Shown in pieces: positions 1 through 53,572 of a stretch of DNA of 64,000 bases. Position numbers and translations under genes: made by a program. A model generated the notes under the pieces. That model ran no database searches. It saw nothing but the letters and a program-made list of their open reading frames with translations, and was not told the DNA's origin. This DNA comes from Craspedostauros australis (lineage: Eukaryota; Bacillariophyta; Bacillariophyceae; Mastogloiales; Achnanthaceae): assembly GCA_026770025.1 (NCBI GenBank), contig JAMXDE010000019.1:372001-436000 (forward strand), given 5' to 3'. The stretch's first letter is position 1. Every line of letters begins with the position of its first letter.

Positions 1-1943
1 CACGGTGCAACAACATCGGTGCGGTCCACCAGCATGCTGCACTTTGCCACCCCCTACTATTTGCTCCATCGACATTGTCCGACTGCAACAACCCACCATG
101 CTCCACCAGAATGTAAAACATGTACTATTAGCATTGTACCATACCCACACAGGGCAACCTCTGGCATCAGTGCACTATTCTCAAACCAACCCCGCGCACC
201 CTTTGTGCTCCCGCCCGTGGACAATTGCAAGGACAGAAGCCCACATTCCGTCAACGACGAACCGTGCGATGCACTTCTCATCCATCCTTGGAGATGCAGT
301 GCTATCGCCGGCGTTGTTGGGGAAGAACATCAGATCATCAACAAACGCACACTTACGTACCCGGTCGTATCGGGAGGCCTCTCTCCCATCCAATCCACGT
401 TCAGTCCACAACAGGGTCGCTTTTTCATCTTGGTAGGCGTCAAGATGAGATCGAGAGGCCAAATTAAGGATAGACTGGGGTTGGATGGTATTATACTTAA
501 CAAATATATATTATACTTGGCATGATATGTACCAATACCAACATGCATGGCTGCTGGGACAGTCTGCATGCATTGGCTTCGACAAAAGCTGACCACACGC
601 ACCTGCGTTTACTCGATTCTACACATTTGCCTGGATTTGGTCCAACTACTAGTTCGAAAGTGCTCACGGACGTGTGTGGTCCGTGAACCAAACAAACTGT
701 GAAAATACCTTATCACTATATCAGTCTGTCTGTCAATCCGTGGCGGCCATCGTTCTCTGTTGCCCAAAGCGAAAAAGGCGTCAAGATCGGTTGACGCAGA
801 AACACGATTGCAAAGAACCATAACGCAGAGACTTTGGATTGTTTGTGAAGCATTATCGCGCGTGAACTCCAAACGTATCAGTGGCACACAGCGCGCAGAA
901 CAGCGCTCCCTGCTCTCACCCTCTCTACCATTACAACCCATCGTCGTCCCCTTACCATACACTGACAGGCAGAACGACGATGCGAACAATGACAAGCCAC
1001 AAGAGATGAATGAGGACCGAGAGGATGCCATCCACAAGGGAGGAAAGATCCTCCCGTGATGGTTGGGTCTGTTCGGATTACAACTTCCCCGTTTGGCCCT
1101 GCTTTTCACAAGATCGGACGTCAACATGATCGGCCACGTTCTGATTCTCCTCTTTGTATCGCGTCTCCGTTGAGCCGCTCGCACATCTTCCGTCATCTAA
1201 CTGCCGGTCCATTTTGTACAGCCTCCATCGCGACGGTCGGATTTGGAAACTGGGCGTCGTGCAAAGTGTTGACATAGAGTGGGTTCGACCGCGTTCAGGC
1301 CGCGTAACGTAACTACTCGCACACTACATACCTCGCACACATCATGCCCAGATCCGCACACGCGATGGATTGCTATCACAGTTTCCCCATCATGAAAGAG
1401 AGGGCCATCGTCACCAGAAAACTGCTTTCATCCGCGGCAGCGCAACGCAAGGCATCAAATCCGCGTGAAAGCGGATTCTTGATGCTCAAATGTTCATGGT
1501 TGATCCTTGGAGGCCTCCGAGACGAGGTTTCGTGTCTTTTGGTTCGCAATGCGCACATCACGCGTTGTCTCATCGGCGAAGTTGGCTTTTTTAGCCTGGA
1601 TACATGATCAAGAGAGGCGTGATGTGGTGTGGCAATCAATCGTCCGGCTAGCACAAGAGAATGACGAATCCTTCCCAAGGAGGATACTTTCCGTTGTGCC
1701 CGAATTTGCACGACCAGGTGTTGTTCAGCCCTTGGGCGGATGTGTGCTAGTGGCCCGATCTTCATCACGTCACCTCTCTCGCACATGTCACAACTCACAG
1801 CCACTTTGTTCAACAACCACGCACCTCGCGTCTCTCCTCCAACAACCGCATCAGTCAGAATCATAAAACCAAAAGCTGTCACAAAACACAAACAAGCACA
1901 AACAAGCACAACCAACGACGCCAATACCACCATCGCAAACAAA
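1..1943. other. Spacer with no supported gene
   Basis: Open frames occur on both strands (the longest is about 258 codons, antisense to the next gene's 5' region), but none has a recognisable motif, a good start context or protein-like composition. The last 200 bases are rich in A and C and probably include the promoter and 5' UTR of the gene at 1944. Confidence 0.5.
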
Positions 1944-2603
1944 ATGAAGTTCATCACATCCACAACCGCTCTCGTCTCTCTTCTCGCAGCATCCTCTGTG
2001 AGCGCATTGCCCACCGGGCCAGGAAGCTGCGATTCGCCAACCCCATTCACAGGCGGACCGCACACCAACGAAATTGGCACGTCGAGCTTTGCGGGCGTCG
2101 GACTCCAGGTGAAGATCGGTGACACCGTCCTTGATCCAAACACCCCCTTCAATGTCCCAATTGGAATGGATCACAAGATCGAGATTTCCAGCACGGGCAC
2201 CATGTTCAAGGGCTTCCTCCTCAAGCTTTTCAAGAACGGCACCGACACAACCGGCTTCTTCACCACCACCAATGCCCTCGCCCAAGTCTTGAACAACTGC
2301 GCAAACATGGATGCTGCCGGTCTCGGACACAACAGCAATGTCCCAAAGACCGCGGCCGACGGAACCCTCAACATCCCTTCCGCCATGAGCGACCTCAAAC
2401 TCGAGGTGGCGTCCGTCATTTCGGCTTCTTTTGCGGCCGGATCCGTGCATTACCTCAGTGACTACACCATCAATGCCATCGACGAAGGCGCCACCATGGC
2501 TCCAACGATGGCCCCCACCAGTGCTGCCGCGCCATCTCGATCAGCGCTGGCCGCCTCCGCTGTCGCCGGAATTGCCTGTGCCGTCGGTTCCATGTTCCTT
2601 TAA
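1944..2603 (+). CDS. Small secreted Reeler-domain-like protein, probably GPI-anchored
   Basis: 219 residues, single exon. The start is the ATG at 1944 in a good context (AAAATGA); an in-frame ATG at 1740 would add an unsignal-like leader. Residues 1-21 form a classical signal peptide ending SSVSA before LPTGPG. The mature part follows the Reeler-fold pattern: an early Cys, a GGPH segment, the hallmark FKGFLLKLFKNG at about residues 90-101, a later Cys, and a GLGHNS stretch before a beta-rich end. The tail is a Thr/Ala/Pro linker with repeated TMAPT, then a hydrophobic C-terminus (AASAVAGIACAVGSMFL) typical of a GPI signal. Reeler proteins elsewhere are extracellular adhesion or defence proteins. 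A cell-wall or surface role here is inference. The family call rests on motif recall and could be wrong; secretion is firmer. Confidence 0.7.
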   Translation: MKFITSTTALVSLLAASSVSALPTGPGSCDSPTPFTGGPHTNEIGTSSFAGVGLQVKIGDTVLDPNTPFNVPIGMDHKIEISSTGTMFKGFLLKLFKNGTDTTGFFTTTNALAQVLNNCANMDAAGLGHNSNVPKTAADGTLNIPSAMSDLKLEVASVISASFAAGSVHYLSDYTINAIDEGATMAPTMAPTSAAAPSRSALAASAVAGIACAVGSMFL

Positions 2604-3656: not shown

Positions 3657-6600
3657 TCAAAGGGAAGATGGGAACCGGCGTTCCACATCGTAGGGATCGA
3701 TCATGGCGTGGAGGTGACGCAATGCGCAATCGCCCAGGACGGCCTTGTCGAGCGCATTCTGACCATGAGCGGCCGACGATGATTGGGTCTGTGGCGTCCG
3801 TCCATATCCACCTTCCAGCACAGAGACGACGCGGCCTTGACAGCAAATGTCGGCGATCTCCAAGATCTTGCGCGTCGTCCAGGCATAGTCCTCTGGTTCC
3901 AGATCCATGCCGCGCCGTTCTCGGTTCACCTCGTGCTTCGCATTGCCGACGTCATCGCGGCTCGCATCGAAGCCCGCGCTGATAAGGATCAGGTCAGGGT
4001 TGAATGCTCTCAACGCCGGCAGCAGACGACTTTGGATTGCATTGCGGTAGGCCACTCTGCCGCTGTTCGGGCCGTTGCCTCCGTTGCCACTAACGCCTGG
4101 TGGCACAGGCGAGGTCGTCGCGGAACGTAGCGAAGTCGCTTCGTTCGGGATGCTCTCAACGTCGCTGGCTCTCGGTGTTCCTGCATCCGATGACACGTCG
4201 CCGTCGGTCTTATCATCGACGGTGCGCTTGCGAGTCTTCTGTCTCGTGTTGTGAGATGATCGTGTGGCCGGCGTCGTTGCCGTTGCTGGTTCCTTCCACA
4301 TCGGCATGATGGGGACATTGATGATGTTCATTGCCACGTCGTCCTCGTCTCCCGTGCCCGGATAGAACTTGTACTGAAATGACTTGGTTTCGCGCTTCCC
4401 CTTGCGATCGTTGTCGTACAGGTGGATGGAGAAGAAGAACAATTTGGATGGATCGTGACATTTGCGAACAATTTCCTCCGTACCGTTGCCGTGGTGGATG
4501 TCGATGTCCACGATGGCGCAGCGTTCGCAAAGCAGCCGTTCGTCGGAGATAGCGTGCATTGCGCCTGCTGCGACGTTGTTAAAGATGCAAAATCCACATG
4601 ATTCGCCGCCATCCAACAACCCGTTCACACCGGCATGGTGACCCGGAGGCCGGACGATGCAAAAGGCGTTTCGATTCCTGCCGACGAGGACCCGATCAAC
4701 GGCATGCTGGACTGCACCGGCTGCCCGACGAGCCGCGTTCAAAGATCCCGCACTGAAGGAAGTGTCGGAGTGTTGTCCCAGCTTGACTCGCGACTCGGAG
4801 ATTCTCGACATCGATTTCTGGACCATGGGAGTGAACGGGACGACTGGCGGGGTGATGGACCCGCTACCTCCGGCGCTGTCTTCGTCGCTGCCGTTCTCGC
4901 GTTGCTGCAAAAGCTGTTGCTGGGAGTGCAGCTGTTTCTTCGCTTGACTCTCGAGGTCAGCGCTCAGCCGATTCACGAACTTCAAGTACTCCGTGCTGTG
5001 CACGCGATTCAAAAGATCGACCTTTGCCTTTTCGAATTCCTGCGAGATGTTGAGTTCGTGTGGGAGGATTCCGATCGGAAGTCCGTCCCTGTCGGTGCCG
5101 CATTTCAAGATCCTGTCCAGGATCGTCGTGACTCGTGCTGGGCATTCCCAATCCGACAATGCTTTCGGGATGTGCTCCAGGCATTCCGGATGATGCAAAA
5201 CGAGCGTCCTGGAGTTCGTGGATGCGTTGAAGTGCGTTGCGCGTGCAAACCTCCTGTCCACGGATGCCTGCTTCAGCACTGCCCGTTGCTCCTTCGTCAA
5301 TCGTTTCCTCTTTTGGGCCAACAACTTCAATTCCATAACATTCATCGTGGGCCGTGAAGGGCCACCGGTCGATGAGGAGGAAGACGATGCTACAACGCCT
5401 TCGTCGTCAAAGCCATCAGCGGCGATGTCGATGGGCCGTCGGAAGCTTTTGTTAAGAACGGTTGGACGAGCGCCATTCTCCAACAGCACCTGCACCACCT
5501 TCGAACTCCGGCGACCAGCACGCATGGCCCAATGCAACGGCGTCTCACCATTGTTATTCTTGGCATCTGCACGATGGTACGAGTGGGCGGCATGGCGATT
5601 GGAAAGTGCCAAATGATCAATTCCATCACCAAAAGGAGACAGAACACGGATGGGAGTGAGTGAGAGATGAAGTGAGATGAGATGAAACGTGGGCGTGTGT
5701 CATGCACAACTTTATTCGTTTTGGTTTCGGTCTCGGTCTTGCAATCGTTCGAACAATGTGTTTGGCCTGCGTCCTTCCTCGTACATGAGTCATAGCATTT
5801 GTTTGATACATACATGCGCGTTCGATCAAGCTGGGAGTTCGAAGTGTGGCAGTAACACACCATGATAGCAACGCAGCCAACGCAACCTGACGTGACACAA
5901 CACGACGTACCTCTTGGTCCGCTTTGGAGCAGGAGCACCGCAGCATGTGGATCACCCGCACGGCAAGCCCAATGCAATGGAGTGTTGCCGTGCTTATCCC
6001 TCGTCGAGGAATCAGCGCCAGCTGAAAGCAGGATGCGACAAATATCCGAAGGCCCAGTGGATACCCGGTTACCGCCGGGTTGCTTCAAATTCAATGCCGC
6101 GGCCGAGTGCAATGGAACGTAACCAGCTTCGTCCTTGCGTTCCAGATGGTCGCTGTTCAGAGATAAGCCAATTTGGATGGCAGCGGAATCCATTTCGCAC
6201 ACGGCCTTGTGGATGCGAGAACGTCCCAAGGTCGTGGAAAGTCCGACGACTGGATGCAGAATAGGAGCCTCCGATTCTGCGGGTGGTGATGATTCTTCGA
6301 GGTCGAGTTGTCCCGCTCCTGTTGCACCACCCCCCACAGACGGCATCTTTGGCAATCCCACGGCCATGCCATTCTCTTCATCTGAATTCTTGTCTCCCTT
6401 GTGTTTCTTCTCCTCACTGCTAACACAAGACCAATCAAAAGCAAAGGAACAAAAGTGCAGGTAGAGTTCATAAACGTAAGTGAGGCGTATCCAACATTGA
6501 ATGAAATCAATTTGCAGCAATCCAAGCCAACAATGCAAGAAAGCATATGCGGTAAGTGGTGAGCCTTTCGCAAACATTGACACACAAAAGAAGCAATCCA

Positions 6601-8853
6601 CCCCAGCAGTAATGGCAGCAGCACATCTCCAAGATGCCCCACCATCACACGAATTTAACACAACACATGAAAAGCAGGCAAGCAAGCAAACAATACAACG
6701 TACTCGATAAGCGCTTGCAGCTGTCCTTCCCACGGCGTGACGGGAGAATCACCTCCGCTCTTCGATCTGCCGGTGTTGTACGTGACGCCCAAACTCTCTG
6801 GATTAACGATTTGCAACGAGAGTGCTGGGGCTGACTTCACGGGTGTTGCCGATACTGGTTGCGATGATGATGCAACTTGACGGCCCGAGGTATCATCGGG
6901 CTGCGTCACTGCGCGTGGTGGAGTGACGTTGGTGGACGCAGCCGAGGATGATCTCGGAGCGGCAACTTGATTTGCGCCAGCGGATGAGTCGGGTTTGATG
7001 ACTGCCGGTGCTGCAGACGAGGTGGATATTGGTGGTGGTGTCGCCGCGCCTGCATCGGCAGACTTCAGGATATTGGCAGCACGTTGCGATATGCTGGACG
7101 AGTGTGCCATCGCTGTCTTGTGCGCTCCGGCGCGCTCCTCCCTGGTTCTGGCCAACGAGAAGAACCCTCCGTTGCCGGATGACGTGGAAGATGCTACTCC
7201 GGCCAACAACTTCGCTGCAGCAATCTCCGCAATTTTTCGCTTGCCGCAAGCAGCAGGGGAAGGCTCCGGGAATGGATTGCGTCGCAAGGACGAGGTGGCA
7301 TCAGGTGCGACGATTGAGATGCCAAAGTTGGGTGTGCGGTGCTGGCCCGCTGTTGATGGCGGGTATGTCTTGCTGGCATCTGCAGCAGGCGCCGTCGAGA
7401 ATGCCGAAGCTTGCGTCGACAGTTGGAATGTCGTCCCTGCACCGACAGCTGGTGCAGCGGGCGCAGGGCCGGCGGACGATGGCTTGACCTTGCTACTTGT
7501 GGATCCGGCCAAATTCGAAATGAGCTGTGCCGCAGATGTGACGCTGGACTGTCGATGCGGACTCAAGTGGCTTCGAGAAGGCACGACGACAGGAATGCCA
7601 AGCGAATTGGCCGTGGTGAGGCCCGTCAGGACCTTCGGTGGGTTCTTCGCGATGCTAACTGGCGTATACTTCGAGATGGGAACAGCAGGTTCTGCGGATC
7701 CGGGCGATTTCTTTTGCGACGAACCGCCGCTTTTCTTCATGCGCTTGTTGGGTGACGCGATGGAGAGTCCGCCGTTGTCGTTGGGCTGTCCCAGCCCCGC
7801 TGGCACCGCCGTCCCCATCTGAACGGACGCAACCTCTTCGCCGGATTGCTTTGCCTTTTGCAGCTTTTGGAAGTACTTCTGCGCGTGAGTGCGCGTTTGG
7901 ACGACGGTGCGCGTTTTCACCTTCGCTGCGACCTTCTTCCATTCCTTCCCGTACATGTTGAGGGCCATGAGGAACTTATTGTGCTCCTCCTGCGTCCAGC
8001 GTCCAGTCTGCTCATGTCCAGTCTCCACCACCTTGCCGGGAGTGTTGGGATCGAACTTCGGATTGGATGCGTGGTACGGCCTGCCGCTGGAGTTGGTGCC
8101 TCCAGTGGTCGACGCCGAGATGGAGACAGTGAGACCGCCGCCGCCACCACCACCGCCGCCCTCCTCGTCGCCTCCCTGATGCTTCGATGCATGCGGTAGG
8201 CGCTTGCGGTTGTGTCTGCGTTTCTGTTTGCTGATTGCCGGTGCCATGCTGGTGGTGGTTGCTGGTTCGTTGCGGGTTGTGACATCTGTCATGCGAAGGT
8301 CCTGGTCTTGATCGTACACATGCTGCGCGATGTAGGAACGCACTGGGTCATTCTCTATGGAATGCCTTGCACCAGTCAACCTGGCGTCTGCCGCATTGCT
8401 GTCGTGGCTATTTGCGGGTGGCAACGCGCCTCCTTTGCCGTTGGTGAGGTCGAGGAATTGCGTGTGCTTTGGTCGCTGCGCGCCGGATGAAGGCGCTCTT
8501 GACACTGGTGCTCCGGCAGCTGATAACGCCGGTGACGTGATGGTGCCAATGGGTACCAACGTTACAATTGCCGTTGGTCCCGGAGCCGCCGATGTTGGTT
8601 CGGTGTCCATTGCTGGTGGAGTTGGTGCTGAATTTGTTCCCACGGTGTCCGTATCATCGGTGCTGTTGCCATCATCCTTCCCCGCCTCGGCTTTGCTGAC
8701 GGATCTATTGTTCACGTGGAAGTAGTCGGTCGATCCTGCGGGTGCGTTGGTGTTCTGCGCATCGGCCGTTGCACCCATCCTGGCGGCAGCCGCAGCTGCG
8801 TCAAGGCTTGTGAATGCAGTGATGCTTGCATGTTCTCCGTGTGATTCGCTCAT
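3657..8853 (-). CDS. SHAQKYF-class MYB / ankyrin / class II histone deacetylase fusion (three exons)
   Basis: Exons 8853-6704, 6419-5911 and 5566-3657 give 1522 residues, stop TGA. Both introns have GTACGT donors and AG acceptors. Exon phases (2, then 1) rejoin exactly: ATC GA|C AGT and AGA G|AT GCC. Order: low-complexity N-terminus with poly-Gly (about 233-240); a single MYB/SANT repeat (about 283-335) ending in THAQKYF, the plant/stramenopile SHAQKYF variant that binds DNA; Ser/Pro/Ala linker; ankyrin repeats (about 770-930), one split by intron 2, with GNTPLHWACRAG and GETPLHWAMRAG on either side; HDAC domain (about 1010-1500). HDAC motifs are RPPGHHAG (HH dyad), DIDIHHGNGTEE (zinc ligands), SAGFDAS (zinc Asp) and LEGGYG (catalytic Tyr), so it should be an active Zn-dependent class II enzyme. 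An acidic/Ser insert of about 80 residues precedes NPDLILISAGFD. Predicted role: sequence-targeted nuclear deacetylase repressor (inference). Two adjacent genes remain possible if intron 1 is not spliced, but no stop-start pair separates them in the spliced frame. Confidence 0.8.
6417..6421 (-). other. NAGNAG tandem splice acceptor of intron 1
   Basis: On the minus strand the intron ends TTAGCAG. Splicing after the first AG starts exon 2 at 6419; splicing after the second starts it at 6416. Both keep the frame and differ by one Ser (IDSEEKK versus IDEEKK), at the junction between the MYB half and the ankyrin half. Confidence 0.55.
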
Positions 8854-24694: not shown

Positions 24695-25768
24695 TCACAA
24701 ACCCAGCATCCCCCACGCCTCCAAGTACACGAAGGACCCGTAATCCAGCAGAAGCTGCTCGCCCGCCGCGATATCCCGCGACGCGAACGTCCCATTCAGA
24801 AGCACACCCGCATCGTAGCCTTCCCGCTCCACCATGTTGACGTCTTCGTCATCGTCGGCCGCATTCGTCAACGACGCCGCATCGAGATCGGAACAGACCA
24901 TGCCATCCCGGATGGGATACGACCACATCAGCAGATCGCACGCGACATCGCGCGGCACGCGGCGCAGGAAGGTGCGGAATTGATGTCCCTGCGTGAATTT
25001 GGCCGTGTATTCATCCGTCCAGATCAATGTGCCGTTGGCAATGTCGGTCCTCGCGAAGACGCCGCGGCCCATCTCGGCATGGTGCTTGGCTTCGATGGGG
25101 ACGTGGAAACCGCTGCCTTCGATGGGCATCGTGGCGTTGGGCATGATGCTGAGGTAGGTTCGGCGCAGCATGCGGAATGTGGCGTCTGAAGTGATGGGGC
25201 GCGGCGGTGCGTTGCGGCTCTTGCAGTTGTAGGCCTTCTTGAGCTGCGAATGCGTGCCTTCGTATTTGGCTTTGTCGTTGGTCGTGCCATCTTCATTGCT
25301 GCGATGTTGCCGTTGATCGATGTCTTTGGATGCCATTTGGTCGCCTCCTTGCTTGGCTTCATTGTCCACATCCGCATCGTTGGCGCCATCATCCACAAAA
25401 TCCTCATCATCATCGTCGTCGATCGCGCTATTGGATTGATGCGCGTCGGCGTTATCGCTCCTGCCTTGGCTGCCACCATTTGCAACGCCCAACCCGGCCG
25501 ATAGACGATCACCTTCGCGGATCTGCGCTTCAGTACCGCGCAGCATGCTGTTATGATGTATCCTCGCCAACATGTCGCGGCTTTCCTGCTCCTCGAAACG
25601 AGCCACAAAGTCTCTGTCGATCATGGACGCGGGATCCGAGTTGCCTCGCATGGACAGCAACAGGATCAAGGAGACGGCGCTCATGATGGTCGCGGTTTTG
25701 CAACGAAGACAGGAACGCGGACCGCTCAACGATGGCGCCATTGCGCCTCTGCGCAGTCGGATCCTCAT
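24695..25768 (-). CDS. Membrane-anchored SET-domain protein
   Basis: 357 residues from the ATG at 25768 (another in-frame ATG at 25741 would remove nine). Residues about 25-39 (TIMSAVSLILLLSM) after a basic N-terminus look like a signal anchor, placing the rest in the secretory lumen or outside (inference). A spacer rich in Asp and Gln follows. The C-terminal SET core (about 231-344) shows MGRGVFARTDIANGTLIW (cofactor-binding strand), a middle segment with SLTNAADDDEDVN, and FASRDIAAGEQLLLDYGSF, which matches the family's GEELTxDY end with its Tyr. The usual NHS of the SET pseudoknot is altered: the Asn is present but the His is Ala. SET proteins methylate lysines; whether this copy is active is uncertain. 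Confidence 0.75.
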   Translation of the reverse strand: MRIRLRRGAMAPSLSGPRSCLRCKTATIMSAVSLILLLSMRGNSDPASMIDRDFVARFEEQESRDMLARIHHNSMLRGTEAQIREGDRLSAGLGVANGGSQGRSDNADAHQSNSAIDDDDDEDFVDDGANDADVDNEAKQGGDQMASKDIDQRQHRSNEDGTTNDKAKYEGTHSQLKKAYNCKSRNAPPRPITSDATFRMLRRTYLSIMPNATMPIEGSGFHVPIEAKHHAEMGRGVFARTDIANGTLIWTDEYTAKFTQGHQFRTFLRRVPRDVACDLLMWSYPIRDGMVCSDLDAASLTNAADDDEDVNMVEREGYDAGVLLNGTFASRDIAAGEQLLLDYGSFVYLEAWGMLGL

Positions 25769-27902: not shown

Positions 27903-30900
27903 TTATCGTGATCCATCAGTCAACACTGACATGCCGTCGTCGCCGCCGTGGCCACCACTTGGGATCTCATCCTCGTCAGATGTGCTCTTATAATTGCTCG
28001 GTTCGCCAGAGATGCGTGATCCATCATGCTCTCTCTCTGTCGAACTACGAGTCGGGTCCAAAGAGCCGTGCGTATGTGTCGCGTTGCAGTTCCCGATGCC
28101 AGCAACGATCTTGGATGTCTGCCTCCTGGCACGTGGCACAACAGAATTGGCTCTGAAGCCCCTATTGTGGGGCAAGCCCATGTCGACAATCCTTTCTTTG
28201 GCATCGCTAATGCTAGTATCGAGGTGATTCAAATACTTCGACCGTCGCTTTTGAATGTCCTTCACCTTGATGACGCAGTCCCATTCGTTGTAATACTGCA
28301 CGGCCCGTGTCATGTACTCACAAGCCGATTCATGTAGTGCCATTTTCAAAGCATGGGCGTCGGTGTTTGCATTTCCGGCATGCTGAGAAGTCACCTTCAT
28401 CGCGTGGATGTGATATTCAGCAGCTTGTTCGCATGCGATAGCGCAGATATGGGTCAACGAGACCTTCTCAGCCACTGCTATAGCCATGTCGTACACCTCT
28501 GCCGTATGGCGAATCACGTTGTGATTGGACCTGATGCTCTTCATCGAGAGACGCTCTGCCTTGAGCAGCTGAAGCAGAGCCATCGTATTCCTCCCCTTGT
28601 CAGCGACGAGTCTGCGGGCCAAGTTGACTTGTCGCTTCAATTCCTTCTTGTACTTCGCCTTGCCTGTGTCTTGATACAGCGCAGACGCTGAGATACCTTG
28701 CGCAAGTATGATGGTCGTATCGAAGTAGTAGCCTTTTGCGTTTGCGGATAAACCATTGTACAACGTGATCATTCGCTGGGTGAGCTCGTGTCGCCGAAGT
28801 AGAGTCGCCATCAACGGCAGACCAGAGTAAGTTGCCACGAGGCGATGCACTTCATCTGGGTTCCCGGAACTCTTCGAATGATCGTTCGCCAGATTGCGTT
28901 CAATGACCTCCCAATCGATGGGGATGGCGCCAACCAAGTATTTCGTCATCATCAGCAGCGCGGTTGTCACTTCATTACTGAAGGCCACGTTGTAGACTTT
29001 GTACTGTTGGAGAGCAGTCTCAAGAGCCCCAAGCAATGGCTGTAACTTGTACCCAACGAAGAACGCCAATGCGTTGCGCGATTGCAAGCCTTTCAGCCCA
29101 ACGTCGAAGAAACCAGCTTCCATGGCAGCAGAGTATCCTCTGTTCAACATGCTGATGCACTTGGGGAATGGTTCGCTGTATGGGTAGATCCAGGTCCCTA
29201 CGATGGTATGGACTTCAGAGATTTGCTGCGCTCCTGTGGCGCGCCCCAAGAGTTTGAGGGCAATTCCTGCACATCGCACCGTGGCTGCGCTACCTTCATT
29301 TGACACATCGAAAAATATGCTCAACACAGCAAATGCTGCGGCAGAGTGCTCGGTGATGCCGTATCGAAACGTCATGCGGACACACTTGAGCAAGTGCACA
29401 AGCCATGACAGCCAGTTTCCGGAGAAGAATGATCGGTAGCCGACTTCGTGCATGATTTTCATCGCCATCGTATCACGGCAGCTTGTCAGAATGGGTAGGT
29501 TCTCGATGTCTTCATCGGTGTGGTTCTTGAAGAATGCCTTGATCTGCATCAGATCATTCATCGCATGGAAGAGGTAGAATCGACGTGGAGATTCGCCCAG
29601 CTGCCTCGCGACGGACATGCTCATCGATAGAGACTCCGCTGTCTTGCTCTGCTGGCCCAACGCAAGCGCCATGACGAAGTACGTCGTGAGCTTCTCATCT
29701 AAGGTCCGTGCTCTCTTCAAGATCTCGTTACCAATGGAATAGCCGACCTCGAAGTTACCCAACGAAAGCTCTACCTCTGTCCGGCATTGGAACAGCGTGA
29801 GGCAGGTCTCGTAGTGCTCTGACCACGGATTGCGCACGCACTGCAGCGCATGGCTCGCCTTCTGGAGGTACGCGAATGCGGATGTCCGAGCAGCCATCTG
29901 AAGTGCCTTCTGTCCGACTTCAAGATTGAAAGACACAAGGAAGAAATGATCCTTGGTGGGGACGCTGTTGAGATGGTCGGCTGCGATGAAAAGCAGGCTA
30001 TCGACGTCTCTGATGAGGTGCTCTTGATGTTCGCTTCGTGCTGATGCTGCGTTGTGTTTTCGATACATGCCGAAAAGGCAGTGGCCGATCTGCGAGCGAA
30101 GCTTGGTGCCGACCTCACCGCCTGGAATCAATCCATGGGCTGCCTGTTGCACTCGATCATGTGCGAAATGGTACCGGGTCTCGCCAATTGAGTTGGTGAC
30201 GAGGCCTTCCAGAAGGGCTTGGTCCAATAGCGTGCATACGCGTTCGACTGTCCACGGCGCAGACTCTGCCGATTCTTGCTCTACCGTTGCCGACGTCTCG
30301 GTGAGTGTTCTCTGCTCACCGTGTACCTGTAGATGCACCATGTCCATTCCTCCATGGTCCTGGATGTACTGCAGCACCATCTGCAGGACATGCACATCGA
30401 ACGTCGACCGGATGTAAGCGGCGACAGAAAGAACGTGCTGAAGATGCTGCGGCAGGCTCCTGAGCTGCATCTCGATGATGGCCACGATGTTGTCGCCAAT
30501 GGGGAGCTCGCCGGTGTCGCCATTTGTGGATTGGGTGAGATCCCATTCCCATCGACCCAAAGTGTTGTTATGGACGATGATTCCGCTCCTCTTGAGCTCT
30601 TCCACGGCCTGGAGCGTGAAGTAGACGTTGCCTTGCGTCTTTTGGTGGATCTTGGAGGCGAGGACCATGAGATCGTTGTCATCGTGGGATCGGTGGAGGA
30701 GATGGGAGAGCCATTGAGTGCAGTCCGGCAATGGCAAAGGACCAAGGGTAACCTGCTCAAGGAGTCTATCGCTGCTCTCGCGGTTTCCATGTCGGTAATT
30801 GGTGTTGGCATTGACGTTGGTACCGATGCCGGTACCGGCACCGACACCCATGATGCTCTGGTTGACCAATCGGTCCAGGAAGGATCTCTGCAGGGGTGCC

Positions 30901-32129
30901 TCTGGCGACAATTCCACCGCTTGGTGGTTGTGGGGATCAGTCTCCTGTCGGATGGCCCCCAGCAACATGAAGTTGTGGAGATCGGTATCGGTCAGCAACG
31001 ATGCCAGAAGTTCCAGCCCGGCAGCTGATGACCATTGCAGATCGTCGAGGAAGAGGAAGACGGGCCGTTGCGGAGTGGAGATGGCCTTCATGAATTGGAT
31101 GAAGATGTAACATAGGCGATTCCACGTGCTCTGAGAGTCGCCGGTGGCTGCTGTCTTCTGCTGACTGCTGTCATCATGTTCGGCATCCACGATCGTACCT
31201 GCCATGTAACAGCCAGGGATGCTGCCTGTGGATACAGATGCAGCATCCGTTGCCGCATGTGCGGATTTTTGAGTGGAAGCGTGACTGACATCGCATGCCG
31301 AGTCGCTCGAAGATGCCCCAACGGAGTTCGAGAACAAGATGGACAGCGACGGAACCACTGTGATCAAAGCAGACATGGCTGAGTAGCTCTGTCGCACCAA
31401 ATTGCTCTGTAGTTGATTGATGGATTTATCGTGGTTGGCATCGTCCCGGTTGGATTCGGGGAAGTTCGTGTCCGCATCGGCATCCGCATCTACGGAAAAC
31501 GCATTTCCCATGGCTTCTTGGATCCGACGCAGCTCTTCCGGAGACCCTTGCTTGAGCTGCACAGCGAAGTCATCCAGTGCCTGGATGATGGCAGAGAACG
31601 GATCCTTGCTCCCGGTGAACTCATCGTACTTGCCTCGCAGCACGTAGCGGCAGCTACAGCCGCATTGTACGTTTGCTTGGTGAGGGTGGCGGTTGTCTTC
31701 GCACGAGCAGGTTGCGTTATTGAAGAATTGTTCGATCAGTTCTGACTTTCCAGTTCCGCTTGTTCCCCAAACCAGAGCGGCTGGGATGATGGGCTGACCA
31801 TCGTTGATGTGACGCCAGATGTCGCGGAGATGTTGCAACTCCTGCTCTCTCCCAAAGAAGGAGGCTTGCTTGCTGGATCCAGCCGATTCGTGGCTTGGGG
31901 CCACATGCTTCTTCGATGCTGGCGCCGATGCTGATGCCAGACGCCCACCTTCTGTTGAAAGGCTAGGTTCGAAAGCCGGCGACGTGGACAGAGTGGTTGT
32001 CGACATCGATGCTACTGCTGATCCGCATTCCGCTGCTTTCTCATCCATGAGAATGGATCCAGCACGTGTGGATGTAGCCGAATGGGCATTGTCATTGGTC
32101 TTCCCAATGAAGTTGCTGCTTGATGGCAT
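27903..32129 (-). CDS. STAND-type P-loop NTPase with helical/TPR-like C-terminus (COG3899-like), paralogue 1
   Basis: 1408 residues in one exon, ATG at 32129, stop TAA. N-terminal 90 residues are low complexity. SFFGREQELQHLRDIW (about 90-105) is the typical entry of predicted AAA/STAND ATPases, followed by Walker A GTSGTGKS (122-129), the family's VVPSLSILFS segment (about 258-267), Walker B VFLFLDDLQW (357-366) and a sensor strand LLGAIRQET. The winged-helix part includes HFAHDRVQQAAH near residue 655, a hallmark of this family in multidomain signalling kinases. The remaining 700 residues are alpha-helical repeats. In many relatives this core precedes or follows kinase, GAF or cyclase domains; here none is visible. 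A Cys-rich insert (CSCEDN...CGCSC, 141-160) lies just after Walker A. Likely a nucleotide-switch signalling scaffold (family knowledge plus inference). Tandem with a paralogue upstream. Confidence 0.85.
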   Translation of the reverse strand: MPSSSNFIGKTNDNAHSATSTRAGSILMDEKAAECGSAVASMSTTTLSTSPAFEPSLSTEGGRLASASAPASKKHVAPSHESAGSSKQASFFGREQELQHLRDIWRHINDGQPIIPAALVWGTSGTGKSELIEQFFNNATCSCEDNRHPHQANVQCGCSCRYVLRGKYDEFTGSKDPFSAIIQALDDFAVQLKQGSPEELRRIQEAMGNAFSVDADADADTNFPESNRDDANHDKSINQLQSNLVRQSYSAMSALITVVPSLSILFSNSVGASSSDSACDVSHASTQKSAHAATDAASVSTGSIPGCYMAGTIVDAEHDDSSQQKTAATGDSQSTWNRLCYIFIQFMKAISTPQRPVFLFLDDLQWSSAAGLELLASLLTDTDLHNFMLLGAIRQETDPHNHQAVELSPEAPLQRSFLDRLVNQSIMGVGAGTGIGTNVNANTNYRHGNRESSDRLLEQVTLGPLPLPDCTQWLSHLLHRSHDDNDLMVLASKIHQKTQGNVYFTLQAVEELKRSGIIVHNNTLGRWEWDLTQSTNGDTGELPIGDNIVAIIEMQLRSLPQHLQHVLSVAAYIRSTFDVHVLQMVLQYIQDHGGMDMVHLQVHGEQRTLTETSATVEQESAESAPWTVERVCTLLDQALLEGLVTNSIGETRYHFAHDRVQQAAHGLIPGGEVGTKLRSQIGHCLFGMYRKHNAASARSEHQEHLIRDVDSLLFIAADHLNSVPTKDHFFLVSFNLEVGQKALQMAARTSAFAYLQKASHALQCVRNPWSEHYETCLTLFQCRTEVELSLGNFEVGYSIGNEILKRARTLDEKLTTYFVMALALGQQSKTAESLSMSMSVARQLGESPRRFYLFHAMNDLMQIKAFFKNHTDEDIENLPILTSCRDTMAMKIMHEVGYRSFFSGNWLSWLVHLLKCVRMTFRYGITEHSAAAFAVLSIFFDVSNEGSAATVRCAGIALKLLGRATGAQQISEVHTIVGTWIYPYSEPFPKCISMLNRGYSAAMEAGFFDVGLKGLQSRNALAFFVGYKLQPLLGALETALQQYKVYNVAFSNEVTTALLMMTKYLVGAIPIDWEVIERNLANDHSKSSGNPDEVHRLVATYSGLPLMATLLRRHELTQRMITLYNGLSANAKGYYFDTTIILAQGISASALYQDTGKAKYKKELKRQVNLARRLVADKGRNTMALLQLLKAERLSMKSIRSNHNVIRHTAEVYDMAIAVAEKVSLTHICAIACEQAAEYHIHAMKVTSQHAGNANTDAHALKMALHESACEYMTRAVQYYNEWDCVIKVKDIQKRRSKYLNHLDTSISDAKERIVDMGLPHNRGFRANSVVPRARRQTSKIVAGIGNCNATHTHGSLDPTRSSTEREHDGSRISGEPSNYKSTSDEDEIPSGGHGGDDGMSVLTDGSR

Positions 32130-33215: not shown

Positions 33216-36200
33216 TTACTGGAACAGCTTCTGCGTCTTGGCCTCCAGCACTTCCACTTTCTTCAGCGCTCCCCACTCCCTGTACAACCTCGAAGATTCT
33301 TCGTACCGAGACTTCGCATCATCGCGACGACCGTAGTCCATCAAACAATCAGCAAGCCGCTCATTCGCCGTTGCCTCGTCATGGATGTACCCGCGCTGCG
33401 ATGTGCTTTTGATACTCTGTGCGTACAGCGCGATCGCGGAGCTATGTTTGCCACGCAGGAAGTGCTCTTCGGCTTTCAGAATCGTGAGGTAGTGGGGACA
33501 GTTGGGATGGCCCTGCTTGTTCCACACCTTCAGCTGCTTCGCGCACTGTCGAGCTGTCTTGAGGTATTTTCGGCTCTTCGATGTGGTGACGTGTGAGGCA
33601 GCAAAGCAGGTCAACGCTGCACGGAATAAACTGGGTGGCACGGTGGACGCACCCGGTGTCGCCTCGGCCAATGCGAGGGCAGATACGACGGATAGTTTGG
33701 CACCCATCTCGTATTCACCAAAGAAGCAGCAAAGTCCCGCTTTGGTCAGGTCGAGTGCGTGCTTCTGAGTGTTGGCCATCAAGTCAACTGTATCGTAAGT
33801 GCCCTTGCGTTCGTCGAAGGCGTCCCCGATGAGGAGGACGGTATGTTTGGATGTGCCGCGGAGATTCATGATCTTCTGCCATCCTAGACACATGAGGTAA
33901 TGCTGCTGGGTCTGATTGAAATCCAGCAACACCTTGGTGTATGCTGCGCAATCGGCGTCGATGTGGGATAGCCGAGTTCCGTCAAAAAACGAAAAATTGA
34001 TGTAGTTGGAGATGCTCCAGGCTGCTGATTCCAAATCGCCACATGCCGTGGCCGTGCGATACGCCTCCATGAACGGCTCTTTGATCTCTTCCAATGGTTG
34101 ATTCCAGTGCTGTATCAACGAGTAAAAAGTGAAGATAATTGCAGGTTCGGTGGCGGGGTGATCTAGCCTGGCTAGCATTTCGAGGGAGGCGCGTCCCAGA
34201 TTCTCACGTGCCTTGACATCGCCCATGGCAGAACCCGTGATGATACCCAGAAAGATGAAGGCAATCGGAGAATGCTCGGATATGCCGTACTTGAACGTTC
34301 GTTGAAAAGTCTTGAGGGCGATGATGGGTATGAGCTCTGGGTCGGCGAGGTAGCAAAGTGTGACAAGCTTACCCAACGTCCTCATCACTGCTTCCTCCTC
34401 ATTTTCATTCAGCGGGAGCTTTGCAATGGATTCCGATGTCAACGAACGAGCGGCGCGCTTCACCTTGAGGAGTCCGGAGATGATCGCGAACTTTCGTTTC
34501 ATCCCGGGCTTTGGAATGTTGCACCCCAGCTGTGACAGGACGCTCAAGCAAAGCTGCACTGCGACAGATTTCTCACCATCCTTCTTGTGCTCGGCTGCCG
34601 CTATGTCTGCCCATGTGTGGTAGGCATCGATCTTCTCCAAGATGTCGCATTTGGATTCGACGATGATGTTGCAGTACCTGCGGGACCTATCGAGGTCGCC
34701 CGTAACGAATGCGCACTCTGCTGCGGAAGAATAGACTTGTAATGTCTCCTCCTGAAGGTCGTCCCAGTGATTGGGTGGGAGAAGGTCGATGGCACAACGG
34801 AAGTATCTGAGGGCCAACCGAAATGCGGAACAACCGACGGCCTTGGTGCCGGCGTCGAAGTTGACCATCATCACTCGCTTGCGGCGATCGCTCTTGTTAG
34901 CATCCGGGATCAGGTCCGGCCTTGTGTTGACAAGGTTCGTGACCATGAAGATACGTTCATCAAGCTCATCTTGGGAAAGACCAAAAAGGAGGATCTCTCC
35001 CACGCGATACTTGAGCTCAGAGAGCTGCTCCTGTTCCACCATGTCCAGCGCCGCCTCCTGCACCTTGTCGTGGCTGAAGTTGTAGATGGTGGACTGTCTC
35101 GTCTTTGCCTTCTGCTTTGGGTGGGTGCTGGATTGCGTCTTATTCGATGTGTTGGTTGCATCGATGTCCATCATGTAGTCGTCGGCGACCTTGACATTGG
35201 CAGATCGTTCCAGCAAGCCTTCGCGTTCGCAGGTGCGGAGCATCTTGCGGATCCCGCTGTTGGAGACGAAGCGACTGATACCGAACAGCTCTCGGACGAA
35301 AGCCGAATGAGCTGAGTGGATGGAGAGGCCGCGCATCACCACACACATGGTTGAGTAGGACAAGGATGCACCCAGACATGCCGCGATGGGCAAGATCTGT
35401 CTGGCATCCTGCACCTGATGCAGTTTGTTCTTCATGAGCTCGATGACGTTGCTGGTGAGCGGTGACTTGGCCTGCATCTTATCATCATTCCAGACCCATG
35501 CCCATGTGGGTGTTGATACTGTTGATGCTGTCGATGTTGTTGGTGGTGCGATTGGTGCTGGCGCTGGTGATGGTAGCGGCGTCGACCCTGTCGTTGTGGC
35601 CGACTCGGGCAGAAGCATCGATGGATTGTACTGGAGCAGCCGGTCGTCGACCAACGAATGGAGGAACCGTTGCACGAAGAAGGGATTCCCGCCCGTCTTG
35701 TTGTACACGATGTCTGCAAAGTGTGTCACGGCCTCATAGCGTTCATCGTTCGTTCCATCATCTCGGTTGCTGTGGTCAGCAGTGTTGCTGTATGGGATGC
35801 CATCCTGGGGTTTGAGAAGACAGCACAGCAGCTCCTTGACGTGATCCAGCTCCAGATCTTGGATGGGAAGCTTGATGATGCGGAGCGATCGCTCGCGTTT
35901 GGATTCATCTAGCGCCAGCAACGTGGTCTTGAGGATGCGATTCTCTTCCAACAGATTGGATCGGTAACATCCGATGACCATCAGTGACGAGTTGTTGGTG
36001 TCGAGCATCCACGCTTGTAGGATGTCCAGCGATGTCTTGTCGGCCCATTGGATGTCATCGATGACGAAGATGAGGGGGCAGAAGTTGCAGATGATCTGGA
36101 TCAACCTCCGCAGAGCAAACTTGAGCCGATCACCGTGGGCACGGTATCCGATTTGATCATTCCACGGTCTCGCCAGACTGTGTCTGCCAGATGTGCATGT

Positions 36201-37298
36201 CGACAGGCTGGCAACAGAAACATCGCCCCTTGAGGCTGTGCCGAGAACGAGTGCATGCTGAATGCCGTAGACGACCTGAGGGAGAGCTGGGATGACAGCG
36301 GACAGCACCCTGATCTCCCCCTTGGTGAGGCCCTTGGTCAAGAGCTTCCGAAGGGCGGAAAGCCGTCGAGGATCATCGAGAGCGGATGGTGTCTGTTGGT
36401 CAGCTGCTGAGGAGTGCGTTGAAGAAGTGCCATGGTGGCTGGGCGAAGGAAGGTTGCTGCGTGCCTGCTCGCTCTCCGATGTCATGGCGAAGGTCTTGTC
36501 ACCCATGTTGAGAGACGACATGATGACTTTGGCGTGGATGTCTTCTTCGTCGCGAGGCAAGCAAATGATCTGGTTGCATAGATCCATCAATGCAGATTTG
36601 ATCCCAGCGTACGGTTGCTCCGCATTCATCTTGGAGATCTCGCACTTGCCAGAAACGAAGAAGCCGTGGAAGGGGCGGTACACGCTGCTGCTGTTAGTGG
36701 CAGTGTTGGGAGTGGTGGCATTGGGAATGTTGGCATTGTGTGTTGCAGCGAACTTTTTGACTTGCATGGCAAGCGCTGTCTTTCCACTTCCCGAATGTCC
36801 CGAGATGAGGACGAGTGTTCTCTTTGATGATCGCATCGTTTGCAATATCATCTCATCGTTGGCATCTGATGATGACTCTGTTGACGAGTCTCTTGTTGCT
36901 GATGTTGCCTCGCTCACAGGTTCATGGGAGCCACTGTGATGTGGAGCCTTGTTACTCGACTCGCTATTGCTGTCAGAGGATCGCCTTTCACGTCGCAGGC
37001 AAGTCATGCTGAACGCGTGTCGCAGTGCGTGGATCTCCTTGCTTCTACCGATCAGGCCAACTTCCTCGAAGGGAAGTTGTTGATCATCCCGCTGAAGCGG
37101 ATTCTGTGAGTCAAATGGAGTGATGGCAGACGAAGCATCGTCGATCACGCTGATATCTTCCTGCGTCGACTGCTGCTTCAGCTGTGGCTTTGATGGGATA
37201 GCATCGGCACCGTTGGCTGTGCCATTGGCCACATCATGTTGGATGGAGATACCGGCGTTGTTGGCGTCGGTGCGGCGTGAGATGGCTCCGGGCATCAT
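33216..37298 (-). CDS. STAND-type P-loop NTPase with helical/TPR-like C-terminus (COG3899-like), paralogue 2
   Basis: 1360 residues in one exon, ATG at 37298 (second Met adjacent), stop TAA. EVGLIGRSKEIHALRHAF (about 79-96) leads to Walker A GHSGSGKT (167-174), separated by a Ser-rich insert. VIPALPQVVYGIQHA (about 335-349) is the family segment before Walker B LIFVIDDIQWAD (409-420). NFSHDKVQEAALDMV sits near residue 741. The C-terminal half is helical repeats and ends SSRLYREWGALKKVEVLEAKT, the typical end of the family's TPR-like region; the protein then stops, so a downstream kinase or cyclase module is absent. Same order as the neighbour but clearly diverged, so an old tandem duplication. 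A signalling NTPase role is inferred from family membership. Confidence 0.85.
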   Translation of the reverse strand: MMPGAISRRTDANNAGISIQHDVANGTANGADAIPSKPQLKQQSTQEDISVIDDASSAITPFDSQNPLQRDDQQLPFEEVGLIGRSKEIHALRHAFSMTCLRRERRSSDSNSESSNKAPHHSGSHEPVSEATSATRDSSTESSSDANDEMILQTMRSSKRTLVLISGHSGSGKTALAMQVKKFAATHNANIPNATTPNTATNSSSVYRPFHGFFVSGKCEISKMNAEQPYAGIKSALMDLCNQIICLPRDEEDIHAKVIMSSLNMGDKTFAMTSESEQARSNLPSPSHHGTSSTHSSAADQQTPSALDDPRRLSALRKLLTKGLTKGEIRVLSAVIPALPQVVYGIQHALVLGTASRGDVSVASLSTCTSGRHSLARPWNDQIGYRAHGDRLKFALRRLIQIICNFCPLIFVIDDIQWADKTSLDILQAWMLDTNNSSLMVIGCYRSNLLEENRILKTTLLALDESKRERSLRIIKLPIQDLELDHVKELLCCLLKPQDGIPYSNTADHSNRDDGTNDERYEAVTHFADIVYNKTGGNPFFVQRFLHSLVDDRLLQYNPSMLLPESATTTGSTPLPSPAPAPIAPPTTSTASTVSTPTWAWVWNDDKMQAKSPLTSNVIELMKNKLHQVQDARQILPIAACLGASLSYSTMCVVMRGLSIHSAHSAFVRELFGISRFVSNSGIRKMLRTCEREGLLERSANVKVADDYMMDIDATNTSNKTQSSTHPKQKAKTRQSTIYNFSHDKVQEAALDMVEQEQLSELKYRVGEILLFGLSQDELDERIFMVTNLVNTRPDLIPDANKSDRRKRVMMVNFDAGTKAVGCSAFRLALRYFRCAIDLLPPNHWDDLQEETLQVYSSAAECAFVTGDLDRSRRYCNIIVESKCDILEKIDAYHTWADIAAAEHKKDGEKSVAVQLCLSVLSQLGCNIPKPGMKRKFAIISGLLKVKRAARSLTSESIAKLPLNENEEEAVMRTLGKLVTLCYLADPELIPIIALKTFQRTFKYGISEHSPIAFIFLGIITGSAMGDVKARENLGRASLEMLARLDHPATEPAIIFTFYSLIQHWNQPLEEIKEPFMEAYRTATACGDLESAAWSISNYINFSFFDGTRLSHIDADCAAYTKVLLDFNQTQQHYLMCLGWQKIMNLRGTSKHTVLLIGDAFDERKGTYDTVDLMANTQKHALDLTKAGLCCFFGEYEMGAKLSVVSALALAEATPGASTVPPSLFRAALTCFAASHVTTSKSRKYLKTARQCAKQLKVWNKQGHPNCPHYLTILKAEEHFLRGKHSSAIALYAQSIKSTSQRGYIHDEATANERLADCLMDYGRRDDAKSRYEESSRLYREWGALKKVEVLEAKTQKLFQ

Positions 37299-42796: not shown

Positions 42797-45700
42797 GACA
42801 GCTCGACCCCAGCTGTGCCCGCAGAACTGTACTACGACGGCGTGACCTACCATGGAATGGATGATGGGAACGACGATCCCAACAACAATGACTACAAAGA
42901 CGACATGGCAGCGGCTGCCATGGAACAGCTCCACAAACTGAGCACCAAATACAAGGACAAGGTCAACAAGGACATCTGGCTTGCTGACAGCAGAGCTTCT
43001 TATCACATCGTGACTTCAGATGCCGCCCTCTTCTTCGTGCGGCACATCAAGTCATTCGTCCAAGTGGGAGACAGCACAAAACTGGACTCTCCCAAGATTG
43101 GCTCCATCAAACTGCAGATCAAGCAACAAGACAACACTGGCCACACCATCTGGCTCGATGATGTGAAGTACACACCCAAGATGACGGTGAACCTTTTCTC
43201 TATGAACAAGGCTCTGTACAACGGTTACCAGATTGGTAACGACGGCATTCTGATGGACATCATCAACAAAGCAGGGAAGAAGATCATCTTCGATTGGATC
43301 TTTCCCACCTCCAACAGATTCATCACAGGAGTGCAGATGCATCCCATCATGCCAACTGAGGACGATAAGGCTTGCACAACCATCGTCAAGAGCCCATCCA
43401 AAGAGGTGAGCGCGGTGGAATTGCATCGAATGCTTGGCCACGCGCCACTCGAGACCATAAAGCAGACGGCCGCTCAGTACGGATGGAAGATCATTGGCGA
43501 GATGCCGGTATGTCGCGACTGCGCGGTCATGAACGCTAGAATGAAGAACATCTCGAAGGCGACGATTCCAAGAGCAACTCGCCGTGGCGAACGCCTCTTC
43601 ATTGACATTAGTTACACTAAACACATAAGCTTTGGAGATAAACGCTACTGGACCCTGATCGTGGACGACTGCACAGATCACTGCTGGAGTTTCTTTCTGA
43701 AGAACAAAAGTGACCAACCAGGATACATCAAACAATTTGTGCAAACGATCAAATCACTGACAGGTGATCAACAAATCATCTTCCGAGGAGACAACAGCGG
43801 AGAGAACAAATCCACGCAGGATACTCTCATCGATGCAGGACTCAACGTGAAATTCGAGTTCATGGCATCGAACACGCCGCAACAGAACGGCAGAGTGGAA
43901 TGCAAGTTCGCGTACCTCTACACCAAGATCCGCTCCATGCTCAACGGAGCACAACTCGACAAAGAGTATAGGCACGGCCTGTGGGCAGCAGCTGCAAGCA
44001 CTGCCACCGCCATCGCCAACATCACCGTAGCGAAGAATCAAAAGGAGTCACCACATTGACAATTCTTCGGCAGCGATCCACCATACGCGGATGCACTCCG
44101 CACATTTGGAGAGGTGGGTATCGTGAAGACTACCTACAGCGGGATCACCGCCAAACTCAAGAACAGAGGAGAAGAGATGGTGTTCATTGGATATGCACAC
44201 CAACATGCATCAGGGGTCTACAACATGTACAGACCATCGACCAAATCACTGGTCTGCTCTTGAGACATCAAATGGCTCAACCAATCATACGGACAGTTCC
44301 GTGGCTGGGCACCAGCACCGAACATATCCAGCGAAGTAGGAACGACAGACGCAGACGGCTTCACAACCATTGGACGGAAGGGAGCAATGCCAAAGACGGC
44401 AACGCGTCAAGCATCAGAAGCGAAGAGAGTATCTTTTGCTGACAACAACAGATATCACATCCTATCAGATAGCAACGATGAGGATGACGAAGACGATGGA
44501 GCAGTAACCCAACTAGTCCACAATGACGAGGAAGATCGGAGCGAATCCAATCAGGAGGATGACGAGATCATACCATCCGGCGACGAAGCCGACGATGACA
44601 CAGGCGTTACTCCTCCGAACACACCAGCGAGGTCTAAACATGACACACCATCCAGACCTCCACCAAGCAAACCAAGCAAGCGTGACGTAGCTAGAAAGGA
44701 GAGAATCCGACGTCATGAAGCACGAGGCAGGAAGGGAGAAACTAATCCCAAACCGACTGCAGGGAAGAGTATTCCCAGAGCTCTACGTGAGCTCGCAGAC
44801 TTCAATGAACGAGGTCAAAAGGAAGAAGGCTATGAGAGCGATCCATCATCCGATGAGGCGAGTGACGAACTCAGCGATGAGATAACTGACGAATCCAACA
44901 ATGAGACTACAGATGACAAAGAGATTGAAGACGAAGGAGAAGAGATCGAGATCACTCATCATAGCACAACTGGACTATACGGGATGAATGCAATCATCAC
45001 CGAGTCACCGGCGATCGACATCGGACTGTCGATGCAGGACGAGAACAAGGAACCAGAGAAGCACATCGAGCCAACGACATGTGATGGAGCCTTCAACCAC
45101 CCAGATCCCATCCATCGAAAGGGATATCGAGCAGCCATCAAAAAGGAGTTCGACTCCATGGATACACGCAAGGTGTACAGCAAGATCAAACCAGACGCCA
45201 TCCCACACGGCCGCAGATGCTGCAAGCGCAAATGGGTCTTCAAGTTGAAGCGTGACAGCACATATCGAGCGCGGCTCGTTGCATGTGGCTATTCACAAGT
45301 CGCAGGAGTGGACTTCCAAGAGCACTACTCACCCGTCATCCATGACGTGACCTATCGGGTCATGATGGTGATCATGCTGATCAAGAAGATGGACTGCGCA
45401 CTCGTCGATGTCGTAACGGCATTCCTACATGGAGACCTCGACGAGGAGATCTACATGAACTGTCCCAACGGGATGGATCATCAACCAGACGAAGCCCTGA
45501 CCCTACACAAGCCAATCTACGGACTTGTGCAGAGCGCCAGGCAATGGTTCAAGATGTTGGTGTCGACCCTCAAGAATATCAACTTCGAACAGAGCGCAGC
45601 AGACCCATGCCTGTTCTACAGGAAGACGAACAAAGGAAGTATGATTGTGGCCATCTACGTGGACGATTGCTTCTGCTGCAGAGACTCCAAGGCATTGGAG

Positions 45701-52747: not shown

Positions 52748-53552
52748 TGTTGGCAAGTTCCATGATTGGAAGCCTACGATCGTGGAAGACGGTGTTGTTG
52801 ATAGTCGGTCTGTTTGCTATTTCATTACATTGAGACTCCGATCCTCTCGGTGTCCGTTCTCTTGCCCGATGCTCTCGGCGCTTCAATCTGTTTCGTAGAT
52901 TCGGTCTCCTCTACCTCCGACTATGAGTCGGTACGCGAGATCCTCTCTCGCTCCTCTCTGTATTCTCTCTCTCTCTTTCTCTGTCTTAGCATCATGTGTT
53001 TTGTGCTACACGATACTACATGTTTGATGCATACTCCGCATTCGACGCTCCGTTCATTCAGTACTGGCTTCTACTCCATGAGTACTTACCATTTGAAGTT
53101 CACCTTCAGTATCCATGATCTTCATGGGTCATCGGATCTTCACCTCCTGCTCTGACTTGGAGACAGATGTCGATGTGGTGACATGTTGACATCCTGTCGA
53201 CGTCAGTAGGCGTCCTTCTGCTCTCCAGATGTCACGTTCCATTGGTGATGTAGCAGCCTGTCAGATGATATTGTCATCTGAGGTTTAGTTGGGAAGTACC
53301 TCGAGATTCTCTTGGTACCATTGATGGATGGACGGACGATCTTCTAATTCTCTCAGAAATCATCGATTGCAAATTTCCTCCAGAAATTCTGCTCATTTTC
53401 GTGTGTTCCATTTCCGCTGTAATTCTGACGAATCACAGTATACTATCGACACGAATGTAGTTATACCGTCCAAGTGCGTATGAGAGAATAACGGGTGAAC
53501 GATGCACATATACACGTACATCTCGACATATACTCACATGTACATCTCGACA
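52748..53552 (-). repeat. 3' LTR of copia copy 2
   Basis: 805 bp. Related to but clearly different from both the 5' LTR of the same element and the 3' LTR of copy 1. It contains a duplicated TCGAGATGTAC at its start and a CT-rich run near 52955-52982. Confidence 0.82.
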
Positions 53553-53572
53553 CCCTTCCTGTGTGCATTTGG

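Follow-up and report, generated by a model that had tools for sequence, protein, structure and literature searches.

Does a diatom carry a gene that joins a DNA-binding domain directly to a histone deacetylase? A locus on the minus strand of the Craspedostauros australis genome raises this question. It lies at 8853-3657 of a window of 64,000 nucleotides (C17:372001-436000 of a eukaryotic genome of 74.8 Mb in 90 contigs), and it encodes a MYB domain of the SHAQKYF class, ankyrin repeats and a class II-type histone deacetylase (HDAC) domain in that order. Either one gene joins the three, or a MYB gene and an ankyrin-HDAC gene lie side by side. Our analysis favors a single gene for a self-recruiting repressor protein, a reading in which we have reasonable confidence. 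The join between exon 1 and exon 2 is by itself quite likely.

Gene model and domains

An earlier reading of this DNA, here called the original prediction, had proposed three exons with exactly closing phases. Translation confirmed this. The exons at 8853-6704, 6419-5911 and 5566-3657 (2150+509+1910 nucleotides, a multiple of three) give 1522 residues with one terminal stop and none internal. Exon 1 (6704..8853) contains 716 codons plus 2 nucleotides and scores 0.111 bits/codon. It encodes a low-complexity N-terminus, the MYB domain and a long low-complexity C-terminal tail. The N-terminus is uncertain because the gene models disagree on the start of this exon: two plain models place it at 8853, and a self-trained model places it at 8806 and adds a further upstream exon. 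Intron 1 (6420..6703) is 284 nucleotides long and reads GTACGT...TTAG/CAG. Its acceptor is a tandem, TAGCAG: exon 2 can start in phase at 6419 or, 3 nucleotides downstream, at 6416, with one residue less in the latter case. Since CAG ends seven of the 10 other introns with at least 3 nats of support (the seeds of the model were already biased toward CAG and TAG), the acceptor at 6416, with a product of 1521 residues, is no less likely than that at 6419. Exon 2 (5911..6419) encodes a charged linker and the first ankyrin repeats. Intron 2 (5567..5910; 344 nucleotides, GTACGT...GTGCAG) lies within the ankyrin repeat region and has good support, since the ankyrin/HDAC reading continues on both sides of it. 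Exon 3 (3657..5566) encodes the last ankyrin part, a linker and the deacetylase domain, and ends with the stop.

The MYB domain (residues 284-328; 7870..8004, minus strand) was found with both Pfam and NCBIfam. Pfam detected a single Myb_DNA-binding stretch (E-value 6.5e-12). The NCBIfam model myb_SHAQKYF (TIGR01557) matched with an E-value of 4.8e-10 and 39.6 bits, above its cut-off of 29.3, and this match together with the motif THAQKYF bears out the predicted SHAQKYF class. The nearest solved structure is an Entamoeba SHAQKYF Myb (6nvz), followed by KIAA1915 (2cu7), which we take to be MYSM1. The helix-3 region carries a net charge of +8. The domain is 68% identical to that of its paralog C10 over the aligned region, and it keeps 21 residues that are invariant among five aligned MYB sequences of the genome. 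Because it is basic and keeps these residues, it is likely to contact DNA.

As predicted, the ankyrin repeats continue across the GTACGT intron 2 into the deacetylase domain. The Pfam match to Ank_2 spans residues 839-923 (E-value 2.3e-16), with one part in exon 2 (5911..6055, minus strand, from residue 839) and the other in exon 3 (5457..5566, minus strand, to residue 923). Hist_deacetyl follows at residues 1027-1483 (3777..5147, minus strand; Pfam E-value 7e-61, 206.6 bits against a cut-off of 27.9) and covers positions 3-291 of the 298 in the profile. All three Pfam matches exceed their family cut-offs. The domain contains the motifs PPGHHA (H1196, H1197), DIDIHHG (D1242, H1244), AGFDA (D1420) and LEGGY (Y1474). 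From the HDAC literature we take these residues to be the catalytic His pair, the Asp/His/Asp zinc ligands and the catalytic Tyr. An alignment of the target with eight paralogs from its own genome shows no variation in the zinc-ligand and Tyr columns across all nine rows; two fragmentary rows (L005 and L004) lack the His pair.

Among solved structures, the deacetylase is most similar to HDAC6, followed by bacterial HDAC-like enzymes, HDAC4, HDA15, Clr3 and HDAC10; HDAC7 was also found. The best 60 of 383 rows in this comparison contain no class I enzyme, and on this comparison the domain is nearer class II than class I. Class IIa enzymes lack the catalytic Tyr. Since it is kept here, the deacetylase should be active. 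An AlphaFold2 model of residues 1004-1522, built from the nine-row alignment, is of low confidence and informative for the fold only (mean predicted local distance difference test score, pLDDT, 56; predicted template modelling score 0.61). Its core strands have pLDDT values of about 70-90, and an insert ahead of the AGFDA strand falls below 50. The model matches HDAC-like enzymes in fold with an E-value of 5e-15, with poor root-mean-square deviations of 6.7-13.6.

The probable join between exon 1 and exon 2

Intron 1 is a predicted intron, supported on statistical grounds. The original prediction had the MYB frame end at a GTACGT donor. The donor is present, but the frame stays open beyond it as far as a stop at 6655-6657; an end at the donor is therefore suggested, not forced. 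GTACGT was rejected as a diagnostic donor. The window holds 23 copies against 12.2 expected (a count of 23 was reached in one of 100 shuffles), which leaves many chance copies, and the hexamer alone therefore proves little. It is one of six seed donors of the gene model, and it opens three of the 10 other introns with at least 3 nats, including the one that closes the MYB exon of paralog C10.

Codon scores locate where coding stops and resumes. The exon 1 frame scores as coding to about 6704, all frames are negative between 6703 and 6420, and the exon 2 frame is positive from 6418. If the MYB gene were separate, its protein C-terminus would read YVVLFACLPAFHVLC. The 15 codons of the MYB frame past the donor look non-coding: their score of -8.1 is below those of all 35 training open reading frame (ORF) ends, the lowest of which is -7.7. 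Upstream of the first in-frame ATG of exon 2 (6365..6367), the 17 preceding codons score +6.0, a level that three of 54 upstream regions match with an open frame. If the genes were separate, these 17 coding-like codons would be untranslated. The GTACGT donor and an in-phase acceptor are placed where coding stops and resumes, which also argues against two genes.

Base composition points in the same direction. The T minus A skew of intron 1 is 0.268. Eight other fairly supported introns have a positive skew in seven cases (0.02-0.18) and -0.265 in one. For comparison we sampled flanking stretches, matched in length and distance, from 54 predicted genes, of which the target is one. The 287 nucleotides from the MYB stop to the ATG at 6367 have a skew of 0.129, which none of the upstream stretches and one of the 54 downstream stretches reached. 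Within this gap, the stretch 52-193 nucleotides before the ATG has a skew of 0.246, reached by 1/54. The first 142 nucleotides after the MYB stop have 0.218, matched by 0/54 downstream segments. For two inner pieces of the gap the count was 1/54 each. This milder matched form replaced a comparison unmatched for distance, in which the skew of intron 1 had exceeded 54/54 upstream and 54/54 downstream 142-nucleotide segments.

A gene-model hidden Markov model, trained on stretches of the same genome with the target left out, recovered the fusion with exon 2 starting at 6416. The join was preferred in all 27 combinations of model and prior, by 5.8-12.7 nats. The donor was placed at 6703 in the eighteen plain settings and at 6691 in the nine self-trained ones. 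We calibrated these margins with 150 artificial tandem neighbors separated by a 284-nucleotide gap and drawn from a pool of 29 ORFs. This pool includes retrotransposon ORFs. It may also hold incomplete genes, which would inflate the rate of false joins. Under the 'generic' model two of the 150 pairs reached at least 8 nats, and the target scores 8.4. Under the 'GT/AG only' model three did, with a maximum of 9.7, and the target scores 9.65. The two plain models falsely joined 16 and 47 of the 150 pairs.

Relatives and alternative readings

Profile searches of the genome gave 13 Hist_deacetyl matches at 11 places and seven MYB matches among the best candidates. In these lists, only the target has the two domains close together; the next nearest pair is 307 kb apart. 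The closest relative of the deacetylase is a second ankyrin-HDAC on contig C28 (L029:3039-6526, minus strand), 41% identical in the deacetylase part. No MYB domain was detected near it, and none of the best MYB candidates lies on C28. The closest relative of the MYB domain is C10, whose modelled MYB exon stops at a GTACGTAC donor (3.7 nats). No Pfam domain was found in the exon that follows. Two of the six MYB paralogs, C10 and C43:462435, were scanned, and their ORFs covered by the scan showed no enzyme domain. With the C10 MYB and the C28 ankyrin-HDAC as its closest relatives, the target resembles an ankyrin-HDAC gene with a MYB gene attached, whether as a true fusion or only as a neighbor.

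In the viral contig collection, neither the MYB nor the HDAC query found relatives. In the genome contig collection the MYB query gave one weak match (L041:8001-8096, 50% identical over 32 residues). The L041 contig is filed under a Verrucomicrobiaceae metagenome-assembled genome and is perhaps a eukaryotic contaminant. No HDAC was seen on it by eye in ORFs of at least 180 residues between positions 4000 and 14000, where no family scan was made.

Several observations weigh against a single gene. Coding support is low, with a score of about zero over the final 99 codons of exon 1 and an average of 0.041 bits/codon for exon 2. Some of the training ORFs come from the retrotransposons of the window. 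Since the exon 2 frame meets no stop in intron 1, its openness does not count in favor of the join. The gene models also err. In a 16 kb run the self-trained model put the donor at 6691 instead of 6703, and the two plain models got part of the layout of exons 2 and 3 wrong. The self-trained model over-fuses, joining 79 of the 150 artificial pairs, 11 of them at 10 nats or more. Its 10.8 nats for the target were accordingly given little weight, and the argument rests on the simpler models together with the tests of codon score and base composition.

In an alternative reading two tandem genes lie here, a MYB-SHAQKYF gene that runs to the stop at 6655 and, 287 nucleotides further on, an ankyrin-HDAC gene with the ATG at 6367 as its simplest start. 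Gene finders readily fuse neighbors, and predicted same-strand neighbors 332, 365 and 506 nucleotides apart occur. Both halves can live apart, since this genome also has the C28 ankyrin-HDAC and stand-alone MYB paralogs. The ATG at 6367 is in frame, and the 142 nucleotides adjoining it have an ordinary upstream skew (0.049, with 8/54 as high or higher). Against this stand the non-coding look of the MYB frame beyond 6704, the skew of the gap as a whole and the coding-like codons before the ATG. We judge two tandem genes to be unlikely, if still worth keeping in view; a variant in which the ankyrin-HDAC gene starts at 6577, 77 nucleotides from the MYB stop, is less likely. The fused gene appears to be the better-supported reading. 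Of the original prediction of one gene joining MYB, ankyrin and HDAC, the frame and the domains thus stand, and the exon 1-exon 2 join, favored by the calibrated models and by the codon and composition tests, is still predicted.

A fused gene could also yield more than one product. Alongside the fusion, it may make a short ankyrin-HDAC whose translation begins internally at 6367, or a MYB protein cut short at the stop at 6655 when intron 1 is retained, and targeting through MYB would then be optional. Each of these products would stay in frame with its domains whole, the exon 2 frame being open across intron 1 and the MYB-frame stop beginning 46 nucleotides into it. The composition of intron 1 is unlike most sampled upstream regions, and we give such a mixture of products a small chance. 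A slightly smaller one goes to a fused gene whose enzyme has proteins other than histones, or small molecules, as its main substrates, with the MYB and ankyrin parts making other contacts. The solved relatives of the deacetylase include HDAC6, which acts on tubulin, and HDAC10, which acts on polyamines. The basic MYB domain of DNA-binding type and the lysine/arginine-rich stretches of the protein point instead to chromatin.

Other features of the window are as follows. A small ORF at 1740-2603 (plus strand) adjoins the HDAC end of the locus and matches the Reeler domain weakly (E-value 3.8e-5, above cut-off). An ORF at 24695-25768 (minus strand), about 16 kb from the HDAC gene, has a SET domain (E-value 5.6e-6) and is a possible histone methyltransferase. 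Very long single ORFs of 1408 and 1360 residues at 27903-32129 and 33216-37298 (minus strand) each contain an AAA_16 ATPase domain. Two regions are of the Copia retrotransposon type, both with RVT_2: 42857-46654 (plus strand), with Pol_BBD and a sub-threshold integrase match, and 53461-59739 (minus strand), with gag and a zinc knuckle. Across the genome (G000), the chlorophyll a/b-binding family has 61 matches and the silicon transporter family PF03842 has 88, which together point to a photosynthetic diatom as the host. Of the silicon transporter matches, 27 exceed 800 bits and 25 of these 27 have no internal stop; among the remaining matches some are partial and some contain stops. The sites include C2:977655-1028778 and C61:24421-130392, with others on C11, C9, C24 and C37. 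This family is strikingly expanded, perhaps recently.

Precedents and a proposed repressor

As a rule, a deacetylase depends on a separate DNA-binding partner to reach the genes it acts on. HDAC6, HDAC4 and Arabidopsis HDA15 share the deacetylase domain and catalytic residues with the target. They reach DNA through partner proteins and are not known to have a DNA-binding domain of their own.

The original prediction knew of no earlier description of the three-part architecture. The MYB-ankyrin-HDAC order was indeed not found in the literature searched, a weak negative given that few subscription papers and no eukaryote sequence databases were covered, and a MYB-HDAC protein is not mentioned in the covered parts of PMC8854648, PMC3145265, PMC4827209, PMC4222949 and PMC7339932. 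Two further papers, PMC2993927 and PMC12718196, were listed as containing both domain names. Partial precedents do exist. Oomycete class II HDACs with three to four ankyrin repeats are described in the covered text of PMC5112689. Like the target and the C28 gene, they have ankyrin repeats and Hist_deacetyl in one protein; unlike the target, they are not reported there with a MYB domain, and the word Myb is absent from the main text. The same text describes a predicted oomycete PHD-AP2-AP2-HDAC-Med27 protein, in which a DNA-binding-type domain (AP2, present twice) also accompanies a class II deacetylase. Here AP2 and PHD take the place of MYB, and Med27 that of the ankyrin repeats. MYSM1 fuses a Myb/SANT domain that binds DNA in vitro to a histone-modifying enzyme, and its orthologues are said to be vertebrate-only (both from the covered part of PMC7216186). 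The likeness is a functional analogy only, since the MYSM1 enzyme is an H2A deubiquitinase (MPN) and SWIRM replaces the ankyrin repeats; Pfam found neither SWIRM nor MPN in the target protein at an E-value of 0.001. Stand-alone MYB-SHAQKYF factors of stramenopiles, as covered in PMC4827209, share the DNA-binding class of the target. Because the oomycete ankyrin-HDAC and PHD-AP2-HDAC-Med27 proteins were already described, the novelty narrows to the MYB addition. The new element is a MYB domain on an ankyrin-HDAC, and the ankyrin-HDAC part is a known stramenopile architecture. The gene may have arisen when an oomycete-type ankyrin-HDAC gained a MYB factor in this lineage or in an ancestor.

We propose that the minus-strand gene from 8853 to 3657, spliced at its two introns, would produce a nuclear protein of about 1,520 residues. 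Its MYB domain would contact DNA directly and with sequence specificity. The ankyrin repeats could form a docking surface for a partner protein or a histone tail, and the zinc deacetylase of class II type, tethered by a long flexible linker, would strip acetyl groups from nearby histones. The whole protein would thus repress transcription by recruiting itself, with no need of a separate recruiting partner. A self-targeting deacetylase repressor, as first predicted, is a fair inference from the sequence. For the fuller proposal, we consider the chances slightly better than even. It holds that diatoms have here a natural one-protein repressor, in which a SHAQKYF MYB bypasses corepressor recruitment by bringing along an ankyrin module for docking and a class II deacetylase that is active, and that the gene arose when a MYB gene and a stramenopile ankyrin-HDAC were joined.

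The significance of such a protein is moderated by the oomycete AP2-HDAC and ankyrin-HDAC proteins and by MYSM1. If the proposal is true, the target genes could be found by mapping one binding site. The protein would be a natural counterpart of engineered repressors that link a DNA binder to an HDAC, and it would provide a handle on gene silencing in diatoms.

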